From positions 682,001 through 746,000 of the forward strand of contig JAPLFF010000007.1 of assembly GCA_026390775.1 (NCBI GenBank): a DNA stretch of 64,000 bases. Reading direction: 5' to 3'. Made by a program: the position numbers and the translations under genes. The notes beneath the pieces are model-generated. The model was not told where the DNA came from and did not search any database. It saw nothing but the letters and a program-made list of their open reading frames with translations. Position 1 is the first letter of the stretch; every line of letters starts with the position of its first letter. Positions 3,244 through 28,124 of this stretch are shown here, piece after piece. This DNA comes from Ignavibacteriales bacterium (lineage in GTDB: Bacteria; Bacteroidota; Ignavibacteria; Ignavibacteriales; Melioribacteraceae).

Positions 3244-5430
3244 ATGACAAATCATTTTACGTTACCTAAACCGGTCAAATTATTAATCTCGTTAGTTTTA
3301 TTGTCGTTCATACTTGGAATGATTCCGGTTTCACCTGAAGAAGGAATGTATCCTTTAAGTGAGATAAATAAAATTGATCTTCAAAAAGCCGGATTAAAAA
3401 TTGATTCTAAAGAAGTTTATAATCCTAATGGAGTTAGTCTTGTTGATGCACTTGTAAGTCTTGGCGGATGTACTGGATCGTTCATCTCCGATAATGGCTT
3501 GATTATAACCAATCATCATTGTGCTTTTGGTGCAATTACAAGAGCCAGTACCGTAGAGAATAATTATCTTGAAAATGGTTTTCTTGCAAAGACACTTGCA
3601 GAAGAAATCCCATCACAAGGAGGTATTTGCAGAATTACTGAATCTTATCAGGATGTTTCTGATATAATTCTCGGTGTAATTCAAAATGTAACTGATCCCG
3701 TAGAACGCACAAAAGTAATTGCGCAAAAGATAAAAGAACTTTCAGACGCTGCCGCAAATGAGAAAGAATCTATCGTTGCAGAAGTTTCCGAAATGTTTGC
3801 CGGCAAGACATACGTTTTGTTCAAGTATAGAGTGATTCGCGATGTCCGTCTTGCATACGCTCCTCCTCAATCGATCGGTAATTTTGGCGGTGAAACCGAT
3901 AATTGGGTTTGGCCAAGACACACAGGAGATTTTTCGTTGATGCGTGCTTACGTTGCACCTGACGGTAAAGCGGCTACTTATTCAAAAGATAATGTTCCCT
4001 TCAAACCAAAAAAATTCTTAAAGATAAATCCTAATGGAGTTGAAGAAGGAGATTTTGTTTTTCAACTTGGCTACCCGGGCAGAACATTCCGCCATCGTCC
4101 TGCACAGTATTTGAAATATCAGCAAGATTATTTACTTCCGTACACTTCCGATCTTTACCAGTATGCAATAGAAACAATGCAAGAACTTAGTGCAGGAAAT
4201 AAAGAACTTACACTTGCTTTTGCGAACCGCATAAAAGGTCTTGCTAACACAATGAAAAATTATCAAGGTAAGATTAAAGGTTTGAAGAAGATTAATCTTG
4301 TTGCACAAAAACAAGAAGAAGAAAAGCAGCTGCAGCTATTTATTAATTCCGATCCTGCTTTGAAAACAAAATACGGTAATCTATTGGAAGAGATAAAAAA
4401 TGTTTTTGAAAAGGTAAATCAAAATGCTATATCAGATTTGTGGTTAAGACAAATCAATAACTTTTCTCCAGCACTTCAACTTGCTACGTTTGTTTTAAAT
4501 TATACGGAAGACGCCCAAAAGCCTGATAATGAAAGAAGACTGGCTTACCAGGAGAAAAATATCAAACAAACTCTTGCAGCAATGGAAAATTCAAAGCAGA
4601 ATTACAATGCAGATTTTGAAAAAACGATGCTTATGAAAATGTTCATGGATGCAAATGAATTCAAAGAGTCCTCTCGAATTTTGGCAGTTGATGAGATACT
4701 AGAAGGAAACGGAGTTAATCCCGAAGAAGCTTTTCAGTTTTTTGTCAGTAGTAATATTATCAGCTCAAAAATCCGCGACAAAGAATATTTCAATTCACTT
4801 ATAACAAAGAAGCCCGAAGAGATTGCAGCATTACAAGATCCTCTCTTCATTTTTACCAGAAAACTTAGAATGCAGAACCAGGTAAGTGACAAGGAAAACC
4901 AAAAGAATGAAGGCAAGCTTAATAAACTTTATGGTGATCTTGTTGATGTAAAAATGCTGTGGAAGAAAACCAATTTCATTCCGGATGCGAACAGCACACT
5001 GCGGCTTACATACGGATATATTAAAGGTTATAATCCGGTAGATGCAGTTTATATGGAACCGTTCACTTCAATTGAAGGAGTAATTGAAAAAGGTGCTACT
5101 GGCGGTGATGATTTTGTTATTCCGGATAAGTTGCGAACAGTTTATGATAAAAAAGATTTTGGAAAATATGTAAGCAAGAAAACCGGCAAACTTCCGGTTG
5201 CTATGCTTTACGATATGGATACAACTGGAGGAAATTCCGGCAGTCCGGTTTTAGATGCTTACGGAAATTTGATCGGAGTTAATTTTGACCGTGCGTATGA
5301 AGCAACAATAAATGATTTTGCCTGGAATGAATCTTACAGCCGTTCAATAGGTGTTGATATACGTTATGTTTTGTGGGTTATGGATAAGATCGGTGGTGCA
5401 GAGAATATATTAAAAGAAATAGGATTGTAA
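3244..5430 (+). CDS. S46-family dipeptidyl-peptidase, DPP11-like (Asp/Glu-specific)
   Basis: The protein is 728 residues, the usual size of the S46 serine exopeptidases DPP7 and DPP11, which release dipeptides from oligopeptides in the periplasm. A signal peptide (about residues 1-30) precedes the PEEGMYPLSEI start of the mature enzyme. The chymotrypsin-like triad is visible: His92 in TNHHC, an Asp near 219 in GGETDNW, and Ser665 in GGNSGSP. Arg683 lies 18 residues after the catalytic Ser, matching the spacing of Ser655 and Arg673 in Porphyromonas gingivalis DPP11. That Arg sets preference for Asp or Glu at P1, whereas DPP7 has Gly there. GGAG is placed six bases before the ATG. The enzyme fits an asaccharolytic, peptide-using lifestyle. 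Confidence 0.92.
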   Translation: MTNHFTLPKPVKLLISLVLLSFILGMIPVSPEEGMYPLSEINKIDLQKAGLKIDSKEVYNPNGVSLVDALVSLGGCTGSFISDNGLIITNHHCAFGAITRASTVENNYLENGFLAKTLAEEIPSQGGICRITESYQDVSDIILGVIQNVTDPVERTKVIAQKIKELSDAAANEKESIVAEVSEMFAGKTYVLFKYRVIRDVRLAYAPPQSIGNFGGETDNWVWPRHTGDFSLMRAYVAPDGKAATYSKDNVPFKPKKFLKINPNGVEEGDFVFQLGYPGRTFRHRPAQYLKYQQDYLLPYTSDLYQYAIETMQELSAGNKELTLAFANRIKGLANTMKNYQGKIKGLKKINLVAQKQEEEKQLQLFINSDPALKTKYGNLLEEIKNVFEKVNQNAISDLWLRQINNFSPALQLATFVLNYTEDAQKPDNERRLAYQEKNIKQTLAAMENSKQNYNADFEKTMLMKMFMDANEFKESSRILAVDEILEGNGVNPEEAFQFFVSSNIISSKIRDKEYFNSLITKKPEEIAALQDPLFIFTRKLRMQNQVSDKENQKNEGKLNKLYGDLVDVKMLWKKTNFIPDANSTLRLTYGYIKGYNPVDAVYMEPFTSIEGVIEKGATGGDDFVIPDKLRTVYDKKDFGKYVSKKTGKLPVAMLYDMDTTGGNSGSPVLDAYGNLIGVNFDRAYEATINDFAWNESYSRSIGVDIRYVLWVMDKIGGAENILKEIGL

Positions 5431-5445
5431 AAACCTTTCTCATAT

Positions 5446-5470
5446 CCCCCTCCTTGTTATAAGGAGGGGG
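5446..5470. repeat. Perfect 10-bp-stem hairpin, likely repeat or bidirectional terminator
   Basis: CCCCCTCCTT (5446-5455) pairs exactly with AAGGAGGGGG (5461-5470) around a 5-base loop, between the convergent S46 peptidase gene and the NicO-like gene. It is followed by a second G-run (5478-5484). There is no clean T-run, so a dispersed intergenic repeat is as likely as a terminator. Confidence 0.6.
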
Positions 5471-5488
5471 AATAAAAGGGGGTGGTCA

Positions 5489-6142
5489 TCAATACTCCAC
5501 AAAAAATGCGAGCACACCAACAATGATCAAAACTATTCCACTAATTAGTTTATCATGATGCTCTAAAAAATGCCAATTAAGTTTGCGAACACCCTTCGAA
5601 GCAAAGTGCACAAGAAACATCATTCCAAGAACTGTAACGAAAAAATAAACTACAGAGACAATTCCAATTCCCAACCATCCTAAACGGCTGGCGGTGAAAT
5701 AGTATACTTCAATTTCCAAACATGGGGAGAAGAACATTGCTACACTTAGCGTTAGTACAATTGATCTTTTACTCTTTCGTTTTTCGATTATTTCATCAAT
5801 GTGAATATGATGATGGTGATGAGCTGTTTTGATTAAACTGTGCTGGTATTCCAAGTAGAAATAGATAATGCCAAGAATTATTAAAATTACCGGTGCAACA
5901 TAATGAGTAATGTAATGATAAGACTCGGATAGTTTATAACCGACCAAGCCAACAATAATTCCAATAATAACAGTGCTAATTGTATGTGAAACCCCGGTGA
6001 TTGCAGTTACAGTTAACGTTTCTTTGTCGGTCCACTTCTCAGCTTTGCCAATTGCAATTAAAGGAAGCCAGTGACTTGGTATTGTAGCGTGAACCAAGCT
6101 AAGCAGAAGACTTCCTAAAAATATTTGTATTATTGAATTCAC
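5489..6142 (-). CDS. NicO/LysE-like polytopic membrane protein with His-rich loop
   Basis: This 217-residue protein has about six hydrophobic segments. A cytosolic-type loop near the middle holds HHHHHIHID, a histidine cluster typical of nickel/cobalt or other divalent metal handling. The N-terminal HATIPSHWLPL stretch and a later FFSPCLEIEVYYF segment resemble the first and fourth helices of NicO/UreH/LysE-superfamily transporters, where His and Cys residues line the metal path. The simplest reading is an inner-membrane metal exporter or permease. The substrate cannot be told from sequence. No metal-enzyme genes are adjacent, and the start at 6142 has no strong Shine-Dalgarno. The gene is convergent with the S46 peptidase. 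Confidence 0.6.
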   Translation of the reverse strand: MNSIIQIFLGSLLLSLVHATIPSHWLPLIAIGKAEKWTDKETLTVTAITGVSHTISTVIIGIIVGLVGYKLSESYHYITHYVAPVILIILGIIYFYLEYQHSLIKTAHHHHHIHIDEIIEKRKSKRSIVLTLSVAMFFSPCLEIEVYYFTASRLGWLGIGIVSVVYFFVTVLGMMFLVHFASKGVRKLNWHFLEHHDKLISGIVLIIVGVLAFFVEY

Positions 6143-6184
6143 TAACCCAAAATATCAAAAAATATTGTATGTGTGGAAAGTAAT

Positions 6185-6233
6185 GTAGAGACGGGATATC
6201 CCGACAAGTCGGGACAAGTTGTCCCGTCTCTAC
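6185..6233. repeat. Nested palindromic intergenic repeat
   Basis: GTAGAGACGGGA (6185-6196) and its exact complement TCCCGTCTCTAC (6222-6233) enclose a second perfect hairpin, TCCCGAC/GTCGGGA (6199-6205 with 6208-6214). The two-level structure resembles REP-type dispersed elements rather than a simple terminator, because no T-run follows on either side. Confidence 0.7.
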
Positions 6234-6240
6234 TGGATTA

Positions 6241-6351
6241 TTATCCTACTGCAACTTTAATGTAATTTGCCACACCGGAATAATTCTCAAGCTGGTTTTC
6301 CAAAAACATTTCGTAAGAACCGAGATCTAAAAATCCATGTGTCAGGGACAT
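6241..6351 (-). CDS. Possible 36-codon small ORF after the tRNA terminator
   Basis: An ATG directly after the T-run of the tRNA-Lys terminator opens a 36-residue frame ending YSGVANYIKVAVG. It has ordinary amino-acid content but no Shine-Dalgarno and no recognisable family. It may be the remnant of the C-terminal end of a lost gene or simply chance, since the frame also reads open back through the terminator. Confidence 0.2.
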   Translation of the reverse strand: MSLTHGFLDLGSYEMFLENQLENYSGVANYIKVAVG

Positions 6352-6383
6352 AAAAAAGCCTAATACACGTTGTATTAGGCTTT
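6352..6383 (-). terminator. Rho-independent terminator of tRNA-Lys
   Basis: On the minus strand a 13-bp perfect stem (6371-6383 with 6355-6367) and a 3-base loop are followed by six T residues (the A-run at 6352-6357). It begins two bases after the tRNA discriminator base. Confidence 0.9.
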
Positions 6384-6384
6384 G

Positions 6385-6456
6385 TGAGCACGGGTGGGCT
6401 CGAACCACCGACCTTCACCTTAAAAGGGTGTTGCTCTACCACTGAGCTACGCGCCC
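6385..6456 (-). tRNA. tRNA-Lys, anticodon TTT
   Basis: The minus strand reads as a full 72-base cloverleaf. The 7-bp acceptor stem (6450-6456 with 6386-6392) has two G-T pairs. The D arm is GCTC-AGTGGTA-GAGC. The anticodon stem is ACACC/GGTGA-type with loop CTTTTAA, giving anticodon TTT. The T arm GGTGG-TTCGAGC-CCACC is canonical. The discriminator base is A (6385) and CCA is not encoded. An open frame beginning RARSSVVEQ on this strand is the usual artefact of translating a tRNA. Confidence 0.96.
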
Positions 6457-21517: not shown

Positions 21518-21916
21518 TTAATTGTTTATCACAGTTGAGATTGAACTTGGGTTGACTGTCATAGTTACCTTAACTTTCGTAGATCCATCAGTACCTGTTT
21601 CAGTTCCTACTGCAACAAGGGTTACCACTTGTGCAGCTACTGTAACTGTTAATGCCGCGCTCATATTTGCTGTTGGATTTAAAGATGCCGGAACTGTCCA
21701 GCCGGCGCCGCCGTTGAAAGCATTACCGCCGCCGCCAAGAGCTGTAGGTTTTCTATAGAATTGTTGTGCAAGTGATGATAAGTTTGTTAAGTCTGCAATA
21801 ACTCCATCACGATTAGCTTGTGATGCACTTGCTGTAAATACATTGATACCCACAACTACTGCGATACCAACTATAATTACACCAAGAACGATTAGTAATA
21901 ATTGTTGTTGACCCAT
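21518..21916 (-). CDS. Pilin-like protein with non-canonical N-terminus (copy 1)
   Basis: The 132-residue protein starts MGQQQLLLIVLGVIIVGIAV, a long hydrophobic helix like the pilin assembly helix. It is followed by a small beta-rich domain (WTVPASLNPTANM, VTLVAVGTETGTDG, KVKVTMTV). Classical type IV pilins have a basic leader, a G/FTLIE cleavage site and Glu at +5. Here the only candidate site is after Gly2, and position +5 would be Leu. It has its own strong promoter, an AAGGAG Shine-Dalgarno at 21925-21930 and its own terminator, which together suggest the major subunit. The position directly upstream of pilC supports a pilus role. Homology to the other two copies is clear along the full length. 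Confidence 0.82.
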   Translation of the reverse strand: MGQQQLLLIVLGVIIVGIAVVVGINVFTASASQANRDGVIADLTNLSSLAQQFYRKPTALGGGGNAFNGGAGWTVPASLNPTANMSAALTVTVAAQVVTLVAVGTETGTDGSTKVKVTMTVNPSSISTVINN

Positions 21917-21961
21917 TTTTGTAACTCCTTCTTGTTTGTTTGTGTTTGTTAATTAGATTAA

Positions 21962-21989
21962 AGAATATATATCCTGAAATAATTGTCAA
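21962..21989 (-). promoter_or_regulatory. Sigma-70-like promoter of pilin copy 1
   Basis: The minus strand has a perfect TTGACA (21984-21989) and TATTCT (21962-21967) separated by 16 bases, about 46 bases upstream of the ATG. No sigma-54 GG/GC pair was seen here, so the NtrC-type regulator elsewhere in the window does not obviously act at this site. Confidence 0.5.
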
Positions 21990-22133
21990 TTTTTGTCGAA
22001 GTAACCAAACATAGTCCCACTATATAGTTACTTTCATATTTCATGTTCTGTTATATCCTTGTTCATTTTCTGTGCCAACGAATTCTCTTCACATCGTGGC
22101 TATTAATCAACTTAATTTGCGTAAGGTGACTTA

Positions 22134-22526
22134 CTAATTATTAATTGTTGTTGAAGTAATTGCATTTGGCCCGACTAGCATTGTTACTTTAACAACCGTA
22201 GTTCCATCATTACCTTTTTCGGTACCAACACCAACAAGTATTACCGATTGTGCTGCTACTGTATACGTTACTGCTACACTCATATTTGCGGTTAATGATA
22301 AGTTTGCAGGAACTATCCATCCTGTAAATGTATGACCGCCGCCCTTTAATGTTATTGGTTCTCTATAATATTTTTGTGCCATGGAAGCAATATTCGTTAA
22401 ATCTGCAATAATTGCTTCTCTATTTGCTTTTCCTGAACTTGATGAAAAATAATTTATTCCAACTACTATAGCTATTCCGATAATTATTATACCAAGAACA
22501 ATAAATAGTAGTTGCTGTTGACCCAT
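22134..22526 (-). CDS. Pilin-like protein with non-canonical N-terminus (copy 2)
   Basis: This 130-residue paralogue shares the MGQQQLLFIVLGIIIIGIAI opening helix with copy 1. It also shares the central KYYREPITLKGGGHTF segment and the VGVGTEKGNDGTTVVKVTM strands. It starts 18 bases downstream of the copy-3 gene with a GAGG Shine-Dalgarno and is followed by a 217-base gap that carries the copy-1 promoter. It is probably a minor or alternative subunit co-transcribed with copy 3. Glycine and threonine-rich strands in the second half fit an extracellular beta domain. No cysteines are present. The assignment rests on similarity among the three copies and on context. Confidence 0.78.
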   Translation of the reverse strand: MGQQQLLFIVLGIIIIGIAIVVGINYFSSSSGKANREAIIADLTNIASMAQKYYREPITLKGGGHTFTGWIVPANLSLTANMSVAVTYTVAAQSVILVGVGTEKGNDGTTVVKVTMLVGPNAITSTTINN

Positions 22527-22543
22527 CTTTAATCCCTCACAAT

Positions 22544-22924
22544 TTATTTAATTATGGTCGTTGTAAATGAAGTAGATGTCACATTTATTCTTACTGTTAC
22601 AGAGTCATTACCAGTTACAACCTCATTACCTACTCCCGTAATGATTACATTATCCAGAGAAACGACCGCAGTAAAATTACCATTGGCAGTCACAGATAAT
22701 TCGGTTGGAATAGTCCAACCCGAAAAAGTTCTTGAACCACCACCCATAGCACCTGGCTTCATGTAGTATTGCTGGGCCATTGAAGCTAAATTTACCAATT
22801 CATTTGTAACATTATTCCGCTTAGTTTCGATAGCATTAGCTCTAAAAAGATTGATACCAACGAATATCGCAATTCCAACTATAATAACTCCCAGCGCTAT
22901 AAGTAATAGTTGCTGTTGACCCAC
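22544..22924 (-). CDS. Pilin-like protein with non-canonical N-terminus (copy 3)
   Basis: The 126-residue paralogue begins with GTG (22922-22924) preceded by GGAG at a good distance. It opens MGQQQLLLIALGVIIVGIAI, then has NELVNLASMAQQYYMKPGAM and a beta-rich end (VIITGVGNEVVTGND). It is the most diverged of the three. It is the first gene of the pilin group; the left end of the IS1-like transposon lies 235 bases upstream of its start, so its promoter region may have been altered by that insertion. Function is inferred from position in the pilus locus. Confidence 0.75.
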   Translation of the reverse strand: MGQQQLLLIALGVIIVGIAIFVGINLFRANAIETKRNNVTNELVNLASMAQQYYMKPGAMGGGSRTFSGWTIPTELSVTANGNFTAVVSLDNVIITGVGNEVVTGNDSVTVRINVTSTSFTTTIIK

Positions 22925-23151
22925 CTAATTCTCCGCTGCATTTGATAATCGGTAAATTCTTCCGCCCAACTTTCTCTCCATTCTTATTTGAGAATTCTAA
23001 TAAGTCAATTATCAAACCAACTTTTAGATAGAATAAAAAGTGCATTTTCGTTGAAAGGAATATAAAAAACGGAAAGATTAATAGAAAGAGAAATCTACTT
23101 TAAGTTGGATGGATTTGTCCGTGAAGTAATACTTACATGTAAAGATGGGTA

Positions 23152-23158
23152 AGACTAT
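23152..23158. repeat. Left copy of the target-site duplication
   Basis: AGACTAT directly precedes the left terminal inverted repeat and recurs at 26336-26342 directly after the right one. The two copies are identical. Confidence 0.85.
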
Positions 23159-23178
23159 GGTAGTGTCCTAATTTGAAC
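23159..23178 (+). repeat. Left terminal inverted repeat
   Basis: GGTAGTGTCCTAATTTGAAC differs at two positions from the complement of the right end. It is followed inward by a T-rich segment. Confidence 0.88.
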
Positions 23179-23329
23179 GACTTTTTTTGTTTTGTTATTT
23201 TTTAATAAATAGAAGTTCTTAAAAATATTGATTGATTGCAATCTCAAAGTAGATTGGATAGAAATGCACAGATATAAATTACGCTTGTATATATTAAGTA
23301 GTCAGCATATATTTTATATATGTTAAAAT

Positions 23330-23767
23330 ATGGGTTGTTACTTTTTGCAAGTAGACGAAGCAACTATAGAGCATATTATCAATTCCCTAAGAACTTGGCT
23401 TGATGCCGATCCGGTGTGGGCAAGGAAAGAGAATTCATATTTAATTGACTTACCAATTAAAAACGAGGAGAATTTAGAACTTCGCTTTTGTGCTACTAAA
23501 AATGATACCGCTATTGCAGTTCCTAATTTTGTATATTTATTTAATAACAAGAGAATACGTGGATTAGATTATCATACGTCGTATATAGATTGTTATGGTA
23601 AAAAAAATTCTGGTGTTCACGAACATAAATGGTCAAACAAAAATCAAGATAACGATAAATTTCCAAACAATGACTTTGAACATATTCCCTCCGATAGACA
23701 GATAAATTATATTCTTAAACTTTGGAAAATTGACTATCGGGAACAATTAAGATTGGAGTTAAAATAA
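23330..23767 (+). CDS. Passenger gene of unknown function (possibly DUF6978-like)
   Basis: The 145-residue soluble protein has no signal peptide or membrane segment. It begins with a helical segment (VDEATIEHIINSLRTWL), then alternating strands (YLIDLPIKNEENLELRFCATK, IAVPNFVYLFNNKRIRGLDYH), then a polar, Asn-rich region with H-x-H-K-W-S (near residue 97) and an amphipathic C-terminal helix. It resembles small proteins found beside DUF1828 genes, which I recall as DUF6978, but that name is uncertain. Its stop is followed after one base by the DUF1828/1829 gene, so the two form one cassette. A paired role, such as toxin-antitoxin or defence, is possible but unproven. Confidence 0.7.
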   Translation: MGCYFLQVDEATIEHIINSLRTWLDADPVWARKENSYLIDLPIKNEENLELRFCATKNDTAIAVPNFVYLFNNKRIRGLDYHTSYIDCYGKKNSGVHEHKWSNKNQDNDKFPNNDFEHIPSDRQINYILKLWKIDYREQLRLELK

Positions 23768-23768
23768 A

Positions 23769-24509
23769 ATGAAATGTGAAATCTTATTAGACAGTTACTT
23801 AAGAGCTGTAGCAAACAACTCTGAAATTAGACGCATTCAAGATAACTGTGTGCTTATTACTCCATATCTGCATTCTCACGGAGTGTATATTTCTGTGTTC
23901 GCTAATGAATCTGATAACAAGATTAAAGTTCACGATAATGGCGAAACCTTACAATCTCTTTTCTTGAGAGGAGTTAAAATAGTTGATAATTCTCACCGAG
24001 AAGAATTATTAAAAGATATATGCAGAACTTATAATGTCGAAGTCAATGGCTGGACAATTCAAAAAATAATTGAAGTTGATTATCTTGGCGAAGCAATTAT
24101 TGATTTAATAAACGCCGTTAAATCTGCTAATGATTTAATATATCTTCATCAGGCAAGCTCTTCAAATGTTTTTAGATTCGAAGTAGAAATGTTTCTCAAA
24201 GGGAAAAATTTAAGTTATACTCCAAACAAGAAAATTAATGGCAGAACAACAGAACATCGAATTGATTTTCATTATAAAAAAGAGAAAGATAATTTTATTA
24301 ATGTAATTTCAGGCTCCGACTTACAAACCAAAGTTATCAAATCAGGATTTAGCTATTACGATATCAAAGAGAATCATACAAATTTTGCTTGGATAAGCGT
24401 TCTGAATCCCGAAGATAAATGGACAGCACATTCATTAGAGATTCTAAATCAATTCTCACAAACAGTCACTTGGCAAAACAAAGACAGCTTAATAAATCTA
24501 TTAAATTAA
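23769..24509 (+). CDS. DUF1828/DUF1829-domain protein carried by the transposon
   Basis: The 246-residue protein has the DUF1828 pattern in its first half. There is an N-terminal ITPYLHSHGVYISVF strand pair, then IKVHDNGETLQSLFLRGV, in which a conserved D-x-G-E-T motif is plain. The second half (about 130-246) matches DUF1829: an RFEVEMFLKGKNL helix, TEHRIDFHYKK strands and SVLNPEDKWTAHS. The DUF1828/1829 combination is found on phage and mobile elements with unknown biochemistry. It begins one base after its partner gene and stops two bases before the convergent transposase ends. It has no membrane segment. I assign the domain names from remembered motifs, not a search. Confidence 0.8.
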   Translation: MKCEILLDSYLRAVANNSEIRRIQDNCVLITPYLHSHGVYISVFANESDNKIKVHDNGETLQSLFLRGVKIVDNSHREELLKDICRTYNVEVNGWTIQKIIEVDYLGEAIIDLINAVKSANDLIYLHQASSSNVFRFEVEMFLKGKNLSYTPNKKINGRTTEHRIDFHYKKEKDNFINVISGSDLQTKVIKSGFSYYDIKENHTNFAWISVLNPEDKWTAHSLEILNQFSQTVTWQNKDSLINLLN

Positions 24510-24511
24510 AT

Positions 24512-25354
24512 TTAAGCAACTTGTTTTTGCTTTACCGAAATTCCTAAAAATTCTTCCCAACTCCAAATACGATTTGTAATATTTGATTCCATCGCCGGAG
24601 TTGATTTCAACGTCTGATGAACACGCATAAAGTTGTAGTAAAAGAAGTGAAGCGAACACGCACATTTTAAGTTTTCAAGTTTCTTAGAGAAAGCATTTGT
24701 TAATCTTGTGAATCTTCTCATATTCATTCGCATAGTTAAATTTTGTCTTTCGATGTGAGAAGTTGAGATTCTCGAAAATTCAGGATTTCCGTTAATCCAT
24801 TTTTTGTGTAAACATATTATTTTGGGTGGTGAATATCTTCTCTCATACTGGTTATCGTTTGCATACATTTTAGAAATTTGTGCAAACTCAATGTTCTCGC
24901 CGAAAGATTCATTAACAGCTTCACAATAAGCGGGGAAAGAATCAGTAGAAAGCTGAAACCGATTAACAATTCTTTCTCTTCGTTGATTTATAAACGTTAC
25001 GGTAGAATCAAGATTTCTTTTGCCGACATAAAAAGCGGGAACAAGTTTAGTCTCTGAATCCATAGCGACAAAAACATACTGATCGCCGATTTCGATATTT
25101 TTCTTTTCGTCTTTAGATTGGGTGGTTCTTTTTTTATAACAGTAAGTCCAGATCTCATCTGCTTGAATGTAGTTCGATTTTAAGTTCACAAATTTTTCGT
25201 TCATAGTTTCTTGTGCTCTATTTCCTGCAGAGACTAAAAGTCTCATAATTGTATCTCGGTGAGTATTGGAAAGTCTTTCTGTTGATCTGATTGAGTTCCC
25301 CTCACAAAGAGATTGTAAAATTAAAACTTGTTTTTCGATTGATAACTTATTCAT
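24512..25354 (-). CDS. IS1-family DDE transposase
   Basis: The protein has an N-terminal helix-turn-helix (QVLILQSLCEGNSIRSTERL) and an IS1-type catalytic core. The acidic triad is in IQADEIWTY, QLSTDSFPAY and SHIERQNLTMRMNMRRFT. Counting from the longer 283-residue frame these are Asp69, Asp141 and Glu205. The helix after the Glu with R-Q-N and the C-terminal HFFYYNFMRVHQTLKSTPAM are typical of IS1-family enzymes. It is one uninterrupted frame, unlike classical IS1, which needs a frameshift between InsA and InsB. A longer start at 25363 exists, but AAGGA is 8 bases before the ATG at 25354, so that start is preferred. All catalytic residues are present, so the element is probably active. Confidence 0.88.
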   Translation of the reverse strand: MNKLSIEKQVLILQSLCEGNSIRSTERLSNTHRDTIMRLLVSAGNRAQETMNEKFVNLKSNYIQADEIWTYCYKKRTTQSKDEKKNIEIGDQYVFVAMDSETKLVPAFYVGKRNLDSTVTFINQRRERIVNRFQLSTDSFPAYCEAVNESFGENIEFAQISKMYANDNQYERRYSPPKIICLHKKWINGNPEFSRISTSHIERQNLTMRMNMRRFTRLTNAFSKKLENLKCACSLHFFYYNFMRVHQTLKSTPAMESNITNRIWSWEEFLGISVKQKQVA

Positions 25355-25363
25355 TACAGGCAT

Positions 25364-25605
25364 CCTTATTTTTACATTGATTAAACGCCTGCTATGAATT
25401 ATATTTGATTTGAGATTGATAGCTTGTTCACGCAGGCTATTAGTTTAGGGTTTGTAGGTGTTAGCGCACTTGCAGACCCGTTTATAAAGCCCGTTCTATT
25501 CAAACGGGCAACGATATTATTTTCAACAACGTTTTCACCTTTACTCCTTTCATATTATTAGCGTAATCAGTTATTTAGAGGGTAGTTCGAGCTACCCTTT
25601 CTTTT
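25364..25605. other. Hairpin-rich region upstream of the transposase
   Basis: Between the transposase and the HARE-HTH gene lie several inverted repeats. GCCTGC/GCAGGC pairs 25387-25392 with 25432-25437. GCCCGTT/AACGGGC pairs 25489-25495 with 25503-25509. GGGTAG/CTACCC lies near 25577-25597 and is followed by a T-rich run on the plus strand. They may include a terminator shielding the transposase, or a structured leader or small RNA belonging to the element. No open frame of note lies here. Confidence 0.45.
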
Positions 25606-26100
25606 CTAACTTTCTTTTTCTTCTTTTTTCACTTCAAGTTTTTCATCAATTAATACATCGGCTTTTCTTTTCTCTCTCTTTTTATCTGGGTAAAACTCCC
25701 ATAGCCCATAAGCATTACTACTTTTCACATAAACAAAATCACTTGAGTTTTTGCCTAATGAAATTGCAAGATTGCGATATTGAATGGCTTCATTCTTGTT
25801 TCCCGTAAACTCAAAACCACCAGTTTTAAGAGCGTCATAAATTTCTTTTGCTGTTACAGCTTGTCCACGCATCTTTAGATATTCTTTTACAGCGGTAGCC
25901 AGACCCTTGCCGAAGAATTGATCTGGTCTGATGTTCGCCGAATTACCGATAGAAGAAAATTCAGAATCGGTAAAAGGTTGCTCTTTTCCCATTAATGCGG
26001 AAAGACTATTAATGTTCTTTTTAATTTCGTTGGCTCTTTTGGTCAGAGTTTCTAATTCAGCGTAAAGAGACTCAATCGCACTTGTAAGATCTGCTGACAT
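25606..26100 (-). CDS. HARE-HTH-like winged-helix protein carried by the transposon
   Basis: The 164-residue protein has an N-terminal coiled coil (ESLYAELETLTKRANEIKKN), a polar linker, then a compact domain at about 68-140 reading AVKEYLKMRGQAVTAKEIYDAL, with AIQYRNLAISLGKNS and YGLWEFYP. This pattern fits the HARE-HTH winged helix known from HB1, ASXL, restriction-endonuclease and RNA polymerase delta proteins and proposed to recognise modified DNA. The C-terminus is a K/E-rich tail. It lies inside the right half of the transposon, divergent to nothing and co-directional with the transposase. Accessory DNA-binding in transposition, regulation of the element and target choice are all possible roles. 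Confidence 0.7.
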   Translation of the reverse strand: MSADLTSAIESLYAELETLTKRANEIKKNINSLSALMGKEQPFTDSEFSSIGNSANIRPDQFFGKGLATAVKEYLKMRGQAVTAKEIYDALKTGGFEFTGNKNEAIQYRNLAISLGKNSSDFVYVKSSNAYGLWEFYPDKKREKRKADVLIDEKLEVKKEEKES

Positions 26101-26296
26101 TTTAACCTCGACTTAATTATTTTTGTTAGTGCGAATATAGTCTAAGTGAGATGATATGTCAAGAACAAAATGGGGACTTAGGGTAGTCAGTTTCCCAAGT
26201 TATTATATTGTAATGAGTTAGCTCTTAAAAATATTTTGGGAGAGATCATGTTTCCGTGCATCTTTAACCTTAACATAAAGTATTTATAAACTTAAG

Positions 26297-26314
26297 AGGT
26301 AAATTTATTTACCT
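26297..26314. repeat. Subterminal hairpin inside the right end
   Basis: AGGTAAAT and ATTTACCT form a perfect 8-bp inverted repeat around two bases, one base inside the right terminal repeat. It has no counterpart at the left end. Confidence 0.6.
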
Positions 26315-26315
26315 A

Positions 26316-26335
26316 ATTCAACTTAGGACACTACC
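26316..26335 (-). repeat. Right terminal inverted repeat
   Basis: Read on the minus strand it is GGTAGTGTCCTAAGTTGAAT, 18 of 20 identical to the left end. The element ends 22 bases before the aspS stop codon. Confidence 0.88.
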
Positions 26336-26342
26336 AGACTAT
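26336..26342. repeat. Right copy of the target-site duplication
   Basis: AGACTAT, identical to 23152-23158. Removing the element and one copy restores a continuous host sequence. Confidence 0.85.
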
Positions 26343-26357
26343 CACTGCCTTTTAGAG

Positions 26358-28124
26358 TTACTTTACTCTTATATGAAGCTCTGTAAGTTGTGCATCATCC
26401 ACATGAGAAGGAGAATCATCCATTAATGAAATACCACTAGAAGTTTTTGGAAATGCAATAACATCTCTTATTGATGATACACCGGCAAATAGCATTGCTA
26501 ATCTATCAAAACCAAATGCTATTCCTCCATGCGGTGGAGCGCCAAATTTAAATGCATTCATTAAAAATCCAAATTTTTCATTTGCTTCTTCTTCCCCAAT
26601 ACCTAAAGCATCAAACATTTTAGATTGCAATTTTGAATCATGAATTCGAATACTTCCTCCGGCAATTTCATTACCGTTTAGAACTAAATCATAAGCACGA
26701 GCTTTCACTTTGGCAGGATCAGTTTTCATTAAAGAAACATCCTCTAATCTTGGAGAAGTGAAAGGATGATGCATAGCATAAAATCGTTTTGTTTCTTCAT
26801 CCCACTCAAATAACGGAAATTCTGTAACCCAGAGTAGCGATGGTTTTGAATCCGGTTTGATTAATTCCATTCTTTTTGCCATTTCAAGACGAAGAGCGCC
26901 CATGATCGAAAGTGTTTTTATTTTCTGTCCGGTTAAAATGAAAAGTAAATCTCCTGGCGCTGCATTCATTTTCTTAATAATATTTTGTTTTTCATCCTCG
27001 GATAAAAATTTTGCTATTGGAGCTTCTAGATCATTTTCTTTTACTCTCATCCAAATCAATCCGCCGGCGCCAAGTTTTTTTACAAAATCCGTAAGCACAT
27101 CAAGTTGATTGCGGGTATAATCGCCACAATTTTTTGCAAGTAATCCGGTAACAGTACCGTTGTTAGTTACAGAATCTTTGAAGACTCTAAAATCAGAGTT
27201 TTCGAATACATCATTCAGAGTAATCATTTCAAGATCGAAACGCAGATCAGGTTTATCGCTTCCGTATTTTTCCATTGCATTATCATAACTCAAACGGGGA
27301 AGCGGCAAAGTAATTTCATAATTAAGAATTTTTTTTAAAAATTCTTTCATCAATCCTTCTACCATCTCAAAAATATCTTCTACATCCACAAAAGACATTT
27401 CAACATCAATCTGTGTAAATTCATATTGGCGGTCTGCCCTTAAATCTTCATCTCTAAAACATTTTACAATCTGAAAATATCGGTCAAGTCCGGCAACCAT
27501 TAAGATTTGCTTATATGTTTGCGGTGACTGTGGTAATGCGTAAAATTTTCCTTTATGCATTCTGCTTGGAACTAAAAAATCACGCGCTCCTTCAGGAGTA
27601 CTTTTCATTAGCACTGGAGTTTCAACTTCAACAAATCCGTTTTCATCAAAATATTTTCTTGTTATTTGATACATCTTATGGCGAAGCAGAAGGTTTTTTT
27701 GCATTTCGTTTCGGCGCAGATCCAAAAAACGGTACTTCAACCGTAGATCTTCATGTACATCAATCATATCCTCAATTGGAAATGGAGGAGTCTCTGAATG
27801 ATTTAGGATGATTAGTTTATCTACCATAACATCTACTTGCCCAGTAGGTAATGCCGGATTCTCGGTACCTTCAGGGCGTTTTCTGACTTTTCCTTCAATA
27901 GATATTACATATTCACTTCTTAATTTTTTTCCATGTTCGTGTTCATTTGAATTATAGGAAGGTTCAAAAACAACTTGTGTTATTCCGTGGCGGTCACGCA
28001 TCTCTATAAAAATTACACCGCCTAAATCGCGTCGAACTGCAACCCACCCGTTCAAAACTACATTCTGACCAATATTATTCTCTCTTAGTTCTCCGCATGT
28101 ATGCGTTCTTCTTTTGAATTCCAT
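26358..28124 (-). CDS. aspS: Aspartyl-tRNA synthetase
   Basis: The 588-residue class II synthetase charges tRNA-Asp (or tRNA-Asp and tRNA-Asn if the discriminating residues allow). The N-terminal OB fold (VVLNGWVAVRRDLGGVIFIEMRDRHG) binds the anticodon. Motif 2 is visible at CFRDEDLRADRQYEFTQID and motif 3 at GGIAFGFDRLAMLF. A bacterial insertion domain lies at about 300-420. The length is normal for the bacterial type. Transcription runs toward the pilin genes, but the IS1-like transposon now separates them, starting 22 bases after the stop. The gene is intact. Confidence 0.97.
   Translation of the reverse strand: MEFKRRTHTCGELRENNIGQNVVLNGWVAVRRDLGGVIFIEMRDRHGITQVVFEPSYNSNEHEHGKKLRSEYVISIEGKVRKRPEGTENPALPTGQVDVMVDKLIILNHSETPPFPIEDMIDVHEDLRLKYRFLDLRRNEMQKNLLLRHKMYQITRKYFDENGFVEVETPVLMKSTPEGARDFLVPSRMHKGKFYALPQSPQTYKQILMVAGLDRYFQIVKCFRDEDLRADRQYEFTQIDVEMSFVDVEDIFEMVEGLMKEFLKKILNYEITLPLPRLSYDNAMEKYGSDKPDLRFDLEMITLNDVFENSDFRVFKDSVTNNGTVTGLLAKNCGDYTRNQLDVLTDFVKKLGAGGLIWMRVKENDLEAPIAKFLSEDEKQNIIKKMNAAPGDLLFILTGQKIKTLSIMGALRLEMAKRMELIKPDSKPSLLWVTEFPLFEWDEETKRFYAMHHPFTSPRLEDVSLMKTDPAKVKARAYDLVLNGNEIAGGSIRIHDSKLQSKMFDALGIGEEEANEKFGFLMNAFKFGAPPHGGIAFGFDRLAMLFAGVSSIRDVIAFPKTSSGISLMDDSPSHVDDAQLTELHIRVK

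Follow-up and report, generated by a model that had tools for sequence, protein, structure and literature searches.

An IS1-related clade of passenger-bearing transposons that prefers insertion sites 15 bp before promoter -35 boxes

The window analysed in the present study is a stretch of 64,000 nucleotides from contig JAPLFF010000007.1 of an Ignavibacteriales bacterium, and it contains a 3177-bp transposon (23159-26335) which encodes a transposase and three passenger genes. Coordinates given without a label are positions in this window, labels of the type G001 denote congener genomes and labels of the type L001 denote loci fetched for comparison. It was found that the relatives of this transposon tend to insert at one fixed distance, 15 bp, ahead of a promoter -35 box. 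The reading which we favour, and which we consider rather probable, is that of a unit transposon from a distinct IS1-related clade, which carries variable passengers and inserts 15 bp before the -35 box by means of a transposase that reads RNA polymerase.

Insertion sites of the family

Relatives of the transposase were collected by a protein-pattern scan of reference genomes from many phyla, of which the best 80 of at least 561 were taken, and further ones came from viral contigs, plasmids and genomes of the phylum of the window. An element was regarded as delimited when it had GGnnnTG ends with at least 11 of 13 end bases matching and an identical target duplication of at least 7 bp. By these rules 97 transposases of the first set gave 71 elements and 114 of the second set, fetched afterwards, gave 60 (59 after de-duplication of the flanks). 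Together they make 130 non-redundant elements from many phyla, that of the window included.

The preference was first noticed post hoc, as a TTGAC that recurred at one distance in the list of insertion sites. In the first set a TTGACA-like box (at most one mismatch) starts at offset 15 outside the element in 19 of 71 transposase-side flanks and in 5 of 71 far-side flanks (24/142), with 0.43 per offset expected for both, and no such match is present at offsets 14 and 16. The signal was replicated in the second set, where 6/59 and 5/59 flanks (11/118) carry the box against 0.26 expected on each side. Over all 258 flanks, offset 15 holds TTGACA with at most one mismatch in 35 cases against 0.98 expected (binomial P 2e-42), and the exact hexamer in 15 cases against 0.095. 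The -10 box is likewise enriched, at offsets 38-39, which gives the proper spacing of 17-18 bp. Paired -35 and -10 boxes were found in 5 and 5 flanks of the second set, where 0.13 and 0.27 are expected, and TATAAT, with at most one mismatch, occupies offset 38 or 39 in 20 of the 223 flanks that lack a good -35 box, where 0.83 per offset are expected. By a composite promoter criterion 52 of the 130 elements qualify, while shifted offsets give a mean of 2.8 and a maximum of 6. The qualifying elements are scattered over the whole transposase tree, and confinement of the preference to a subclade was rejected (43 label changes against 40.9 with shuffled labels).

According to the mechanism that we propose, one DDE transposase would act on GGTAGTG-type ends and move a variable set of passengers as a unit, with a target duplication of 8 bp in the family and of 7 bp in the window copy. 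New copies would enter preferentially 15 bp before a sigma70-type -35 box, at about position -50 relative to the transcription start, and would thereby leave the neighbouring promoter intact. Because both the -35 and the -10 boxes mark the insertion site, the transposase could be recognising RNA polymerase bound at the promoter. The transposase, or a DNA-binding protein encoded by the element, could instead be reading promoter-like DNA directly, without RNA polymerase. The -35 box is indeed the strongest part of the signal, some of the offset-15 TTGAC flanks may be coding DNA, with about half of the testable insertions lying in open frames, and many elements encode small proteins of the helix-turn-helix (HTH) type or with a KGG motif. 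However, enrichment of the -10 box at its proper offset is also seen in flanks with a poor -35 box, and two boxes 17-18 bp apart are what the sigma-holoenzyme reads. Elements with the KGG motif also qualify at a rate (22/49) similar to those without it (30/81), by which a tie of the preference to the KGG gene was rejected. We hold direct reading of the DNA to be unlikely.

Insertion could also be near-random, with selection keeping those copies which spare promoters or genes. Insertion upstream of a -35 box would be mild for the host, and many elements have no recognisable promoter beside them. But selection would not yield a spacing exact to the single base, such as the 24 matches at offset 15 and none at the two offsets beside it in the first set. 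Classical IS1 was used as a control by searching one exact end in viral contigs, which gave 87 flanks, 83 of them non-redundant, among the matches listed. In these a TTGACA-like box at offset 15 was found in 0 of 83 flanks, and no offset up to 63 had more than 3. An origin of the pattern by selection is very improbable.

A number of observations weigh against recognition of promoters as a general rule. By the composite criterion 78 of the 130 elements fail, and by a permissive measure 58 of 119 testable insertions lie inside an open frame of at least 450 nt; the preference must therefore be partial, or the consensus too narrow. Open reading frames (ORFs) starting outward from the element show no clear excess behind -35 boxes (20 of 35 flanks with the box against 91 of 223 others, P 0.10; 43/55 against 136/203 under other limits). 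No new delimited element was obtained from 26 of 97 transposases in the first set and 54 of 114 in the second, these being cut by contig ends, decayed, divergent or duplicates. On the transposase side of the window element itself, which faces a pilin gene, offset 15 is occupied by TTTACA, but a canonical -10 box was not found at the expected place, so the window alone would not have revealed the rule.

Other kinds of target were considered and rejected. Folding is less stable at empty sites (-26.1 kcal/mol) than at control sites 500 bp away (-30.4 kcal/mol), which is not what targeting of hairpins or terminators would give; the GC content of the flanks is near the background, which speaks against AT-rich targets; and of 258 flanks, each up to 400 bp long, only 2 contain a tRNA gene. 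At one locus, L085, a tRNA-Leu gene starts 56 bp from the element end in the transposase-side flank, so that this copy likewise sits just upstream of the promoter region of a gene.

A similar rule exists in other mobile elements. An excerpt of PMC3942029 describes for TnGBS, ISLre2 and some ISKra4 elements (Mutator-like, p-MULT 3 and 4) that they insert upstream of sigma-A promoters, at 15-17 bp from the -35 box, proposes by analogy with Ty3 that TnGBS-type elements contact the RNA polymerase initiation complex, and places the IS256 family in p-MULT 1. The offset 15 of our clade falls within the spacing given there. Those elements have transposases of the Mutator superfamily, whereas the window transposase gave no Mutator-family match in Pfam and NCBIfam up to E=1, and the window element has no conjugation genes, unlike the TnGBS-type systems. 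The IS1-like, cargo-bearing clade appears to resemble TnGBS-type elements in behaviour, and kinship with them is not apparent at the sequence level. No report of promoter-spaced insertion by IS1-like elements was found in the literature searched, whose coverage lay outside most subscription journals. The combination of a non-Mutator transposase that follows the 15-bp rule with near-universal passengers, partly of defence or toxin-antitoxin type, in an IS-like clade is new within that literature. If the reading is right, the clade would be a second and compact system for testing the published idea that some transposases read the initiation complex.

The window element, its transposase and its affiliation

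The two ends of the window element, GGTAGTGTCCTAATTTGAAC on the left and GGTAGTGTCCTAAGTTGAAT on the right (reverse-complemented), are identical at 18 of 20 positions, including all of the first 13, and both begin with GGTAGTG, which fits the GGnnnTG end type of the IS1 family. The target duplication AGACTAT is 7 bp long because extension to 8 bp gives a mismatch (AAGACTAT against AGACTATC). Four main ORFs lie inside, and the catalytic residues D69, D141 and E205 of the transposase are invariant in an alignment of 61 transposases. The initial annotation had described a 3177-bp element with inverted ends and duplications of this kind, a complete DDE transposase and three other genes, and all of this was reproduced on re-measurement. 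The element is present in a single copy in the 3.01-Mb genome, where the exact 13-mer of the ends occurs twice, at the two ends of the element (a reversed control pattern occurs once). The single copy would fit host genes caught between chance inverted repeats and never mobile. The identical flanking 7-mers, the congener interval without the block and 128 further elements above 1.5 kb that are built in the same way make that hardly credible. The window copy may still be active.

Table 1. Features of the window element and its surroundings, with the stacked pairs of related elements
Feature	Position	Strand	Evidence or remark
Left target-site duplication AGACTAT	23152..23158	.	identical to 26336-26342
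Left terminal inverted repeat (transposase-side end by transposase direction, toward pilin gene)	23159..23178	+	18/20 to right end
Passenger ORF1, 145 aa, weakly PDC-M24A-like	23330..23767	+	PADLOC E=0.0022
Passenger ORF2, 246 aa, DUF1828 protein, PDC-M24B-like	23769..24509	+	DUF1828 E=8.4e-13; PDC-M24B E=1.8e-29
Single-ORF DDE transposase, 283 aa, IS1-like	24512..25363	-	IS1 models, D69/D141/E205, predicted fold
Passenger or accessory ORF4, 164 aa, upstream of transposase on the same strand	25606..26100	-	ORF list
Sigma70-like site TTGACA-17-TATATT, 1 mismatch, directed at ORF4 and transposase	26134..26162	-	about 33 bp before ORF4
Right terminal inverted repeat	26316..26335	-	comparison of ends
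Right target-site duplication AGACTAT	26336..26342	.	identical to 23152-23158
-35-like TTTACA, starting exactly 15 bp outside left end, between element and pilin gene	23138..23143	-	
Host gene downstream of TTTACA, presumably type IV pilin-like	22544..22924	-	name assumed from sequence
Host gene, right-hand synteny anchor, presumably aspartyl-tRNA synthetase (aspS)	26358..28124	-	name assumed from sequence
Stacked pairs of elements	L086:5388-11666; L121:723-8324; L330:2428-11588		

The classical IS1 group has two ORFs, InsA and InsB', which are joined by a frameshift, and the target duplication of the IS1 family is 8-9 bp. The window transposase is one ORF of 283 aa and so departs from the two-ORF arrangement. 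Its best NCBIfam match is the IS1 model NF033558, at 51.3 bits against a cut-off of 100. The Pfam IS1 model PF03400 scores 25.0 (cut-off 24.1) on the C-terminal part alone, and PF13610, for DDE enzymes of the IS240 type, lies barely above its cut-off (27.5 against 27). The IS1595 model NF033547 gives 25.2 bits, well short of its cut-off of 75. Three of four plasmid relatives fetched with their context are annotated as IS1 family transposase and the fourth as an HTH protein. The fold is predicted with a local distance difference test score (pLDDT) of 89.7 as three N-terminal helices and an RNase H-like core. Among solved structures the transposase profile had no sequence match up to E=1; the best Foldseek match of the model is ISCth4 (TM-score 0.43 over 173 columns), and since retroviral integrases reach 0.39-0.41, this similarity is at the generic level of a shared DDE core. 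ISCth4 is presumably an IS256-family and thus a Mutator-like enzyme, and from the predicted fold a remote link of the transposase to such enzymes is conceivable.

The clade shares with IS1 the GGnnnTG ends (stated for IS1 in an excerpt of PMC6807381), a DDE transposase nearest to the IS1 models and, in 128 of 130 elements, a duplication of 8 bp. It differs from IS1 in having a single ORF, a score far below the cut-off of the IS1 model and passengers in nearly all delimited elements, and from classical IS1 also in its promoter-spaced insertion. The transposon would thus belong to a clade that is IS1-related but distinct. The label IS1-like in the initial annotation stands in so far as IS1 is the nearest family, and assignment to IS1 proper does not follow from 51.3 bits. 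The ISMhu11 subgroup of IS1 has lengths of up to about 4.6 kb in tables of the ISfinder type; a literature search for ISMhu11 returned no papers. Passengers are known in the IS1595 family, the ends of which differ from those of the window element. Its transporter insertion sequences (ISs) have a related DDE transposase, from which the low NF033547 score sets the window enzyme apart.

Across the family the duplication measures 8 bp in 128 of 130 elements, 9 bp in one and 7 bp in one, the window element. Delimited elements are 1323-6033 bp long, and all except L269 exceed 1.5 kb (129/130). Passengers are thus the rule among elements that can be delimited, and the earlier view of passenger-bearing IS1 relatives as unusual does not hold for this clade. 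In excerpts of PMC3129680, PMC9330008 and PMC7986276, IS derivatives with passengers form a category of their own, the transporter ISs. In a tree of the 130 transposases the window element groups with Bacteroidota relatives.

The passenger genes

ORF1 and ORF2 of the window element are separated by 1 bp. ORF2 matches the PADLOC model PDC-M24B over residues 3-243 of its 246, whereas the match of ORF1 to PDC-M24A is weak, and up to E=1 nothing in Pfam, NCBIfam and PHROG matches ORF1. The pair thus resembles PDC-M24 in having two adjacent genes with the second conserved over nearly its whole length, and differs from it in the weak likeness of the first and in being carried by a small transposon. 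The PDC-M24B model also matches in 53 of 395 genomes of the phylum, so that the gene occurs well outside this element, and at 29 other M24B loci examined no relative of ORF1 was detected by phmmer. In viral contigs no homologue of ORF2 was found with a single-protein query and one match with a query of five close rows; phage records gave two distant relatives. Among solved structures ORF2 has no sequence match up to E=1. ORF4 has no family match at E 0.001 or better in Pfam, NCBIfam, PADLOC and PHROG, and its sole cluster partner in the first set is an ORF of another element, L085; by its place it may be accessory to transposition. The gene set, unfamiliar to the initial annotation, is therefore partly placed: two passengers correspond to PDC-M24, one of them weakly, and the third is without a family match. 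Judged from these similarities, ORF1 and ORF2 are probably a two-gene anti-phage or toxin-antitoxin-like unit, which could help to pay for the keep of the element.

Recurrent types exist among the cargo of the family. A small basic protein with a GG-KGG motif, typically encoded some 200 bp in from the end farther from the transposase, is present in 49 of 130 elements by motif search. Clustering by similarity groups ORFs from 31 of the first 72 elements with it; one record annotates it as histone H1, and it is possibly an accessory of transposition. Proteins of the HTH plus IrrE/ImmA type recur in 13 of the first 72, and two unnamed groups in 8 (one a duplicate locus) and 6 of them. Singletons among ORFs of at least 100 aa number 79, though some of the ORFs may be spurious. 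In 150 passenger ORFs the Pfam matches included Peptidase_M78 (11), P63C (5), Clp or SDH protease (4), DUF5343 (3), Schlafen AlbA_2 (2) and DNA methylase (2), and the leading PADLOC matches were RmrA (up to 12) and PD-Lambda-2_B (8). No PADLOC family matches more than one of 150 neighbouring ORFs. Passengers are exchanged, and in L086 two adjacent elements, 92% identical over 1206 bp and having almost nothing else in common, have near-identical transposases, which shows exchange of cargo.

The passengers could also be a mixed set of hitch-hikers that share no role, ORF1 and ORF2 having been picked up by chance. This concerns the cargo alone and is compatible with promoter targeting. Transporter ISs are already known (excerpts of PMC3129680 and PMC7986276), most passengers match nothing, 16 of 20 randomly drawn ORFs are without a PADLOC match, and the singletons are many. 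The recurrence of proteins of the HTH plus IrrE/ImmA type argues the other way, as does that of PADLOC families, which reach up to 12 of the 150 passenger ORFs and no more than 1 of the 150 neighbouring ones. A loose cargo of this kind is quite possibly the case, although we lean slightly away from it.

A defence function of the cargo has several points to its disadvantage. PDC-M24 is itself listed in PADLOC as a candidate phage-defence pair, and no paper naming it was found in a literature search. The structure prediction of ORF2 is poor (pLDDT 37.7, from a two-row alignment). The recurrent PADLOC matches are largely one protein type, HTH with an IrrE/ImmA peptidase, and in random samples the difference is small, 4 of 20 passenger against 1 of 20 neighbouring ORFs. 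A description of the passengers as rich in defence genes, taken from tallies of 285 PADLOC families in 150 passengers against 83 in 150 neighbours, was tempered, since these tallies are inflated by single ORFs that match many families (147 for one passenger, 65 for another). Of ten hand-picked passengers four were without a PADLOC match and six had one, including long matches to RmrA, PD-Lambda-2_B, MTase_II and HEC-04. Part of the cargo thus looks to be of defence or toxin-antitoxin type, with most of it matching nothing. A 539-aa passenger at L106:2328-3944 matches the PADLOC pAgo model over residues 71-454 (E=1.9e-38) and is worth a look as a candidate Argonaute-associated or Schlafen-type protein. 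On an Acidiphilium plasmid a pair of RES-domain and Xre antitoxin genes (L217:6383-7221) follows directly on a family transposase, and most of the pair falls beyond the delimited element at 3767-6400. If the reading holds, the ends would provide a sequence rule for the discovery of new modules, namely to read the DNA that lies between them.

Repeated insertion and the surroundings of the window element

In three pairs two elements are joined through a single shared copy of an 8-bp duplication, and the same 8 bp flank the pair (Table 1); beside L227:3997-6840 a further family-type end follows just past the duplication. A promoter box at the predicted offset is observed in two of the three stacks, L330 having TTGACT at offset 15 and L086 TATAAT at offset 38, whereas in L121 TTGACA is found at offset 7 rather than 15. 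Repeated insertion at a single spot set by a promoter would produce such stacks, for a promoter that survives an insertion allows further elements to land at the same spot. In this way small modules would have a simple route to spread without breaking promoters and to accumulate in one place, and gene islands could be built one module at a time. The wider picture, in which an IS1-like clade over many phyla shuttles small modules, including defence and toxin-antitoxin types, docks on promoter-bound RNA polymerase with an origin separate from that of TnGBS and ISLre2, and stacks into islands, is offered tentatively, as something possible rather than probable.

The interval between the pilin gene and aspS was compared in nine relatives of the genus by way of their aspS region. 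In eight of them pilin-side homology and aspS lie close together without the 3177-bp block, and in G011 the aspS side alone could be aligned. Alignment of the joined flanks of the window runs across the junction without a break in G001 and G006, and has more gaps in G002, G004 and G010. The initial annotation had proposed an empty site with one AGACTAT copy, and had named cargo at this locus without the transposon ends as evidence against a transposon. The block is missing from the congener interval, while flank identity is too low for the loss of one copy to be proven base by base.

Three relatives, G008, G005 and G003, are not clean empty sites. The close relative G008 has a different element of 619 bp in the interval (L037:8756-9374), whose ends are of the same type and which has a 7-bp duplication of its own, AAATTTA, a remnant of a transposase and a different small ORF; from its sequence it would be a decayed or non-autonomous carrier of cargo. 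G003 and G005 each retain one bare end. As the duplications match within each genome and differ between the window and G008, at least two insertions at this spot are probable; a single old insertion with later replacement is a conceivable alternative. TTTACA is also present at the offset-15 place in G001, G006 and G010, and TTTACC is present at offset 15 in G008 and G005 and at offset 16 in G003. In G004 a transposase remnant adjoins a degenerate family end with another ORF beside it (L046, about 3314-4150), and a 34-bp stretch there is 91% identical to the interior of the left part of the window element.

Within the window 24 sigma70-like sites were found against 19.3 expected by chance, and two of the 24 are of the one-mismatch class, including the site before ORF4, which is only suggestive as a candidate promoter for ORF4 and the transposase. 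The right end as a folded single strand is ordinary (z -0.98). Beside the element, three tandem short genes at 21518-22924 (minus strand) have products that begin with MGQQQLL, which we take to be type IV pilins, and their number and sequence seem to vary among congeners.

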